From an uncultured Clostridia bacterium (GTDB lineage: Bacteria; Bacillota; Clostridia; Oscillospirales; CAG-272): a stretch of DNA of 64,000 nucleotides. The DNA lies in assembly GCA_944391805.1 (NCBI GenBank), contig CALXUY010000049.1, positions 1 to 64,000 on the forward strand, read 5' to 3'. Shown in pieces: positions 30,375 to 31,320 of the stretch. The translations under genes were made by a program, and so were the position numbers. The notes beneath the pieces are model-generated. The model did not search any database. It worked only from the letters and a program-made list of their open reading frames with translations, and was not told where the DNA came from. Each line of letters opens with the position of its first letter. Within the stretch, counting starts at the first letter, position 1.

Positions 30375-30821
30375 ATGCATCATGAAAAATCCTGCGGTGC
30401 CCTTGTTCTGCGCAGGAGTGCGGAGGACGGGAAGCCGTATATTCTGATGATCCGCCACAAGCACGGCGGGCATCGCTCCTTTCCGAAGGGACATATGGAG
30501 AAGGGAGAAACCGAATATATGACCGCGATCCGGGAGGTGTTTGAGGAAACCTCGGTGCAGATCCGCGTGTTTTCGGATTTTCGCAGAACGGTACACTACA
30601 GTCCCATGCCGGGTGTACACAAGGAGGTTGTTTATTTTCTGACCGAAACCACACAGGAGAATATTTCTCCGCGTGAGGGAGAAATCGCGCAGGTGGAATG
30701 GGTGCCGCTGGAGCAGGCCGAGTCCGTGCTGACACATGAGAACGACAAAACGGTTCTGCGCGCTGCCATCCGCAAGCTGCGCAAGAGCGGATTTTTGCCC
30801 CCAACCGGAACAGATCGCTGA
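30375..30821 (+). CDS. Nudix hydrolase
   Basis: A 148-residue Nudix protein. The Nudix box is seen as GHMEKGETEYMTAIREVFEE plus TSV (residues about 39-61), fitting Gx5Ex7REUxEExGU except that the last Gly is Ser. The catalytic Glu residues are kept. The opening MHHEKSCGALVLRR and the segment HGGHRSFPKGHMEKGE resemble diadenosine polyphosphate hydrolases, but the substrate is not proved. It lies 70 bases after infB, where rbfA is often found, and upstream of the SpoVM-like gene. Confidence 0.88.
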   Translation: MHHEKSCGALVLRRSAEDGKPYILMIRHKHGGHRSFPKGHMEKGETEYMTAIREVFEETSVQIRVFSDFRRTVHYSPMPGVHKEVVYFLTETTQENISPREGEIAQVEWVPLEQAESVLTHENDKTVLRAAIRKLRKSGFLPPTGTDR

Positions 30822-30880
30822 CCGGCTGCATATGATGTAGCAGGGGAATGCAAATCTTCTGACACGGGAGGGAAGGTCCG

Positions 30881-30976
30881 ATGAAAATGATCGTATGGAA
30901 GGCGCCTGCGTTTTTGTCTCCGATTCTGCGAAAGCTCTTTTCGGGCAATCGCAGAAAAAAGCAAACCAAAACATAA
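30881..30976 (+). CDS. spoVM: SpoVM-like spore morphogenesis peptide
   Basis: A 31-residue frame, MKMIVWKAPAFLSPILRKLF followed by SGNRRKKQTKT, behind GGGAGGGAAGG. Aligned without gaps to Bacillus SpoVM (26 residues) it shares Met1, Lys2, Lys7, Pro9, Phe11, Leu12, Ile15, Arg17 and Arg24. Pro9 is the residue known to be essential for SpoVM to recognise membrane curvature on the forespore and anchor the SpoIVA coat basement layer. The amphipathic helix and basic tail fit. The tail is about five residues longer. Regulation by sigma-E is known in Bacillus; I could not see a clear sigma-E site here. The gene is short enough to be missed by normal annotation. Confidence 0.82.
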   Translation: MKMIVWKAPAFLSPILRKLFSGNRRKKQTKT

Positions 30977-31024: not shown

Positions 31025-31267
31025 ATGAAGTACAGAATTCGCCTGGACACCATGTCGGATGTCAACAAGTTTGTCAAGATCGCCACCAAGTACCCCGGAA
31101 AGATTATGCTCAGCGACGGTGAGAATTTCACGGTCAGCGGCAAATCCCTGCTTGGCGCCATGTATACCATGGAGTGGGATCAGGTTTTCTGCGAGTCGGA
31201 AACCGAAATCTACCGTCTGATCAAGGACTTTATCGTTGACGAGTCCGACCCCAATATCGAGGAGTAA
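31025..31267 (+). CDS. HPr-like protein lacking the active-site histidine
   Basis: An 80-residue protein with the HPr fold pattern: FVKIATKYPGKIMLSDGE, VSGKSLLGAMYTMEWDQ and a final helix. The phosphorylatable His15 region of true HPr (HxRPA) is replaced by LDTMSDVNKF, so it cannot act in the PTS in the usual way. The Ser46 region is approximately GKSLLG. Similar His-less HPr-like proteins occur in Clostridia with no known role. It follows the SpoVM-like gene by 48 bases and ends at a strong bidirectional terminator. Confidence 0.78.
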   Translation: MKYRIRLDTMSDVNKFVKIATKYPGKIMLSDGENFTVSGKSLLGAMYTMEWDQVFCESETEIYRLIKDFIVDESDPNIEE

Positions 31268-31281
31268 AAAATTCGATGAAA

Positions 31282-31320
31282 GCGCCCGGCAGCCGTTTTG
31301 CGGCTGCCGGGCGCTTATTC
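31282..31320 (+). terminator. Bidirectional terminator
   Basis: A perfect 14-bp stem GCGCCCGGCAGCCG/CGGCTGCCGGGCGC with loop TTTTG. The plus exit is TTATTC; the minus exit is TTTCATCGAATTTTTT. It separates the HPr-like gene from the convergent MATE gene. Confidence 0.85.

Follow-up and report, generated by a model that had tools for sequence, protein, structure and literature searches.

SpoVM is a very small spore-coat protein marking the surface of the forespore. It is rarely recognised in genome annotation, and whether distant versions of it occur in clostridia where searches have failed was left as an open question (Galperin et al. 2012, PMC3533761). Pro9 is the only fully conserved residue of the peptide and, in Bacillus subtilis, Ile6 interacts genetically with Gly486 of SpoIVA (PMC5607322). 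In the case of Clostridioides difficile, Ile6 is retained in SpoVM and the gene stays near rpmB; the cell can largely do without spoVM, and Asn replaces Gly486 of SpoIVA (PMC5607322). Here we describe a small gene found in a stretch of 64,000 nucleotides (hereafter the window), which is very probably spoVM, from an uncultured Clostridium of the Oscillospiraceae type that forms endospores. It would be a gene of a known kind, in the form of a diverged member new to the family and sitting at a new locus, whose function in the spore coat is suggested by what is known of the family.

A conserved 31-codon gene

A previous sequence-only reading had proposed an uncalled 31-residue frame with a strong ribosome site. 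Its coordinates, length and ribosome-binding site agree with those obtained here, since the ATG at 30881 and the stop ending at 30976 delimit exactly the frame as first described. This frame and its neighbours are as follows:

30375..30821, + strand: Nudix hydrolase gene (Pfam NUDIX, 4.7e-20), an upstream neighbour kept in the genus
30866..30876, + strand: purine-rich ribosome-binding site, GGGAGGGAAGG; relatives are also purine-rich before the start
30881..30976, + strand: spoVM (31 codons), encoding the peptide MKMIVWKAPAFLSPILRKLFSGNRRKKQTKT, very probably a diverged SpoVM
31025..31267, + strand: gene for a His-less HPr-like protein of 80 aa, 48 nt 3′ of spoVM

The corresponding loci of relatives, the named ones of which are uncultured gut Oscillospiraceae/Clostridia MAGs, were located at the genus level through the HPr-like gene and without reference to SpoVM, giving 27 loci with the window included. 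A short frame with the same amino-acid pattern lies 24-54 nt 5′ of the HPr-like start in 27/27 of them, starting with ATG, GTG or TTG and encoding peptides of 26-38 aa (31 aa in the window copy), and no stop codons interrupt it in any of the 27 loci. Residues M1, K2, P9, L12 and P14 are invariant, V5 is present in 26/27 peptides and W6 in 25/27, and position 7 is always K or R (27/27); both Pro9 and the basic tail, whose conservation had been put forward as a check, are retained. The bias towards synonymous substitutions anticipated by the same reading was also found, with pN<pS in 351/351 pairs (mean pN 0.254, mean pS 0.755), which come from related sequences and hence are not independent, the direction being uniform. 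Differences at codon positions 1, 2 and 3 amount to 2519, 1080 and 3931, the third position being the commonest. Purifying selection acts on the 31-residue frame, which is a real conserved gene.

Homology to SpoVM

The only NCBIfam match to the window peptide is the SpoVM_broad model, NF033436 (E=0.0051, 16.8 bits). The score falls short of the curated cut-off of 31 bits, so that the NCBI curated model would not call the gene; this cut-off serves annotation and does not describe the biology of the SpoVM family, and SpoVM genes at the rsgA/thiN site in the same order are likewise below it (26.3 bits in G044, 17.3 in G036). Across the 3.0-Mb genome, the window locus is the only match to the model (whole-genome E-value 0.105), and 12/27 genus peptides match it, the best at 6.2e-6. 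Weak matches elsewhere in other genomes of the genus fall inside long frames and were taken as chance. Pfam gave no match to the window peptide, nor did phage records to the spoVM region, and neither the peptide nor the genus profile matched any sequence in the PDB, the short length of the peptide limiting every single-sequence test.

A profile of the genus was built from the 27 peptides, chosen by position and by a loose KxxxW/I-K/R-x-P pattern. It matches the window peptide at E=8.8e-18, the profile containing the window sequence itself, and 102/197 genomes of the order at E<=0.001. Genes above the NF033436 cut-off are found by this profile (G040, 1.4e-8; G039, 5.7e-7; G042, 6.3e-7); the SpoVM genes of G040, G039, G042 and G057 all exceed that cut-off, and both models reach the same loci in other families (G040, G039, G042, G057, G044, G041, G059, G043, G045, G038 and others). 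Because the profile searches are reciprocal, the genus peptides are tied to accepted SpoVM genes, which is the outcome that a SpoVM profile search in related genomes had been expected to give. The presence of a better SpoVM elsewhere in the genome, which had been named as a ground for refutation, was discarded by NF033436 and by the genus profile, whose next match (E=0.08) lies inside a 406-codon frame.

Ungapped alignment to B. subtilis SpoVM (26 aa) shows 9/26 identical positions and reproduces the nine identities listed by the earlier reading (Met1, Lys2, Lys7, Pro9, Phe11, Leu12, Ile15, Arg17 and Arg24), whereas shuffled window peptides gave a mean of 3.1 identities, reaching nine or more in 20/20,000 cases. 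A single-sequence AlphaFold model of moderate confidence (mean pLDDT 72) predicts irregular residues 1-9 followed by a helix at 10-28, an irregular N-terminus with a helix after Pro9 being a likeness to the B. subtilis peptide. The helical moments are also similar (0.468 for the window peptide versus 0.460 for B. subtilis SpoVM), a value that about 10% of their own shuffles reach in either case. With regard to membership of the family, the Met-Lys start and Pro9 are present in 27/27 genus peptides. Differences from B. subtilis SpoVM are Trp6 for Ile6, Pro14 for Gly14 and a longer basic tail in the 31-aa window peptide, together with the sub-cut-off score, the locus and the −35 element described below. 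Ile6, the SpoIVA contact of B. subtilis, is a common residue, neither universal nor defining; it is replaced by Trp6 in 25/27 genus peptides, and Trp6 also occurs in the SpoVM of G042, G036 and G044. The C. difficile peptide is alike in its clostridial origin, its Pro9 and the presence of the partner SpoIVA, but differs in keeping Ile6 and its rpmB neighbourhood.

Trp6, the new locus and the sub-cut-off score count against SpoVM and, with Pro14, speak for an alternative in which another amphipathic mother-cell micropeptide took over the site-marking role of SpoVM and came to resemble it by convergence. Such a replacement is improbable in view of the unbroken series of intermediates found in the order: the G042 peptide, MKVVVWRSPKFFSAILRKIF, carries Trp6 and is over the SpoVM cut-off, and the G036 peptide, MKIVLWRSPALLSPLLRRMF, shares an xPxLRRxF-type helix with those of G153 and G113, the G036 and G153 genes being at the thiN site. 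As judged by their sequences, G042, G036 and similar intermediates connect the genus with the usual SpoVM of clostridia. The reciprocity of the profiles and a genome with no other SpoVM also argue against convergence. The SpoVM identity originally proposed for the frame stands on its sole NCBIfam match, the reciprocal profiles, its conservation and the lack of a second SpoVM in the genome.

Relocation of the gene

Upstream of the window spoVM there is a nusA-ylxR-L7Ae-like-infB array (named from translations) followed by the Nudix gene. The setting previously regarded as unusual, next to a nusA-infB operon and between Nudix and His-less HPr-like genes, is confirmed in its layout. The usual rsgA-thiN-spoVM(-rpmB) order, frequent although not defining, is absent, and the order here is infB-Nudix-spoVM-HPr-like. 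Wherever it was found in the genus, spoVM follows the Nudix gene, precedes the HPr-like gene, or does both, and the thiN loci fetched from this genus have no rsgA beside them. In contrast, thiN and/or rsgA adjoin spoVM in G036 and G153, from two other genera of the same family, as well as in G044, G040, G058, G050, G049 and G059; the SpoVM peptides of the first five (G036, G153, G044, G040 and G058) are found by the same profiles or by the SpoVM model. The simplest reading would be that spoVM moved together with its promoter from rsgA-thiN to infB-Nudix in the ancestor of the genus. Transcription of the infB operon may also run on into spoVM.

Since the frame is short and ends up 24-54 nt ahead of the HPr-like gene in 27 loci, it could also encode a leader peptide or have a regulatory role for that gene. 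However, conservation extends to the amino-acid sequence and is not limited to the frame being present; moreover, two genomes beyond the 27 loci (G003 and G010) keep the frame behind the Nudix gene with the HPr-like gene missing, which largely refutes this explanation, and the homologues of G036 and G153 adjoin thiN and have no HPr-like gene in their vicinity. A leader function is therefore very improbable. A chance frame with a chance resemblance, in line with the single-sequence whole-genome E-value of only 0.105, is practically ruled out, being refuted by the 27/27 conservation with pN<pS in all pairs and opposed by the genus-profile match, although that profile includes the window sequence.

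A putative promoter of the mother-cell type

Two putative promoter elements precede the spoVM gene:

30808..30811, + strand: −35-like element GAAC (consensus GMAM), 17 nt 5′ of CATA and overlapping the last Nudix codons
30828..30836, + strand: putative −10 element of the mother-cell (sigma-E/sigma-K) type, GCATATGAT; genus consensus, GCATATACT

The motif CATAnnnT occurs 5′ of spoVM in 27/27 genus loci (2.3 in shuffles, 2 in the reversed sequence). Longer versions in these upstream regions are GCATAnnnT (25/27 versus 0.5 expected) and GCATA[TC]nCT (22/27 versus 0.08). The motif lies 36-64 nt before the spoVM start, in a sequence otherwise little conserved, with the GMAM element about 17 nt 5′ of it; the window copy, GCATATGAT, fits less well than the genus consensus. 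The same CATAnnnT element is found before sigK and before the thiN-site spoVM of G036 and G153, and because of the latter the promoter is assigned to spoVM and not to its new neighbourhood. A sigma-A promoter was considered and rejected: TATACT resembles a −10 box, but it has an invariant preceding CA and C at the fifth place, and no TTGACA is present.

The promoters of spoIVA and spoIIIAA in this genus (L079, L157 and homologues) show GTTCTA with CATATAnT, a combination taken as the sigma-E class. The sigK gene shows GCAA with CATATAnT, in the same layout as the spoVM promoter. From these motifs, the putative spoVM promoter has a −10 of the mother-cell type and a −35 resembling the one of sigK and not the one of spoIVA/spoIIIAA, and may depend on sigma-K, or on sigma-E aided by an activator, for instance SpoIIID. 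Possibly, there are two classes of mother-cell promoter, spoIVA/spoIIIAA and spoVM/sigK, differing at the −35. A search of the own genome with the promoter pattern gave 15 matches versus 4 in the reversed control, mostly inside genes and too noisy to define a regulon; among them are sigK and the genes that follow L125 and L126. In those two loci, GMAM-N-GCATAnnCT precedes SpoIIIAH-like and N-acetylmuramoyl-L-alanine amidase-like genes (L126, G000:C28:55548; L125, G000:C21:1876), the names coming from the appearance of the sequences, not from a family scan.

The HPr-like neighbour

The protein encoded after spoVM scores 13 bits against PTS-HPr (cut-off, 23), and the active-site His is absent in 27/27 genus homologues. 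All 27 copies carry an invariant GKSLLGAMYT, aligned to the HPr Ser46 region. Beyond the genus, only weak homologues were seen (35-43% identity, in G035, G036 and G052). In G003 (L223) and G010 (L225), infB-Nudix-spoVM is kept and no HPr-like gene follows spoVM. G025 has two spoVM-HPr-like pairs (C59:11134 and C81:9537) with different sequences, which could be due to duplication or to a mixed assembly. A further element lies downstream in the window:

31282..31314, + strand: perfect 14-bp G+C-rich inverted repeat, GCGCCCGGCAGCCG/CGGCTGCCGGGCGC, probable terminator of the spoVM-HPr-like unit

The terminator scan did not report this repeat, probably owing to its short T tract. Position and the probable shared terminator link the two genes, which are probably co-transcribed. 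It is rather unlikely that spoVM and the His-less HPr-like gene form one mother-cell unit in which a protein of the HPr family works in coat or cortex assembly. If this were true, the HPr-like protein might, for example, link metabolic state to SpoVM/SpoIVA function.

Sporulation context and possible role

As in B. subtilis, the diverged SpoVM occurs in the context of a spore-former with SpoIVA and with a mother-cell-type promoter motif. The same genome encodes SpoIVA (695.8 bits), sigma-E, sigma-K and SpoIIIAA. At the SpoIVA position corresponding to B. subtilis Gly486, every relative with a readable end has glycine, unlike the Asn of C. difficile. A 92% complete genome with neither SpoIVA nor SpoVM (G028) was discarded as a non-sporulating control; it carries sigma-E and sigma-K, and assembly gaps may explain the absence.

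The peptide would be an amphipathic membrane peptide with a flexible N-terminus, a kink at Pro9, a helix starting at residue 10 and a tail rich in basic residues. Its synthesis would probably take place in the mother cell, driven by a promoter of its own of the sigma-E/sigma-K type. By analogy with known SpoVM, from which the time of its expression, its binding to the membrane and to SpoIVA and its role in the coat are extrapolated, it may bind the convex outer forespore membrane and there recruit or anchor the SpoIVA ATPase, so that the base layer of the coat would form at the right surface.

For one lineage, the answer to the question of the distant clostridial versions is that a diverged SpoVM is very probably present, at a new place. 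Among 60 genomes, many more are recognised as carrying the SpoVM family by the genus profile (43 at E<=0.001, 26 of which supplied the profile) than by the NCBI cut-off (5). Moreover, the natural Trp6 variants offer material for testing the contact between SpoVM and SpoIVA.
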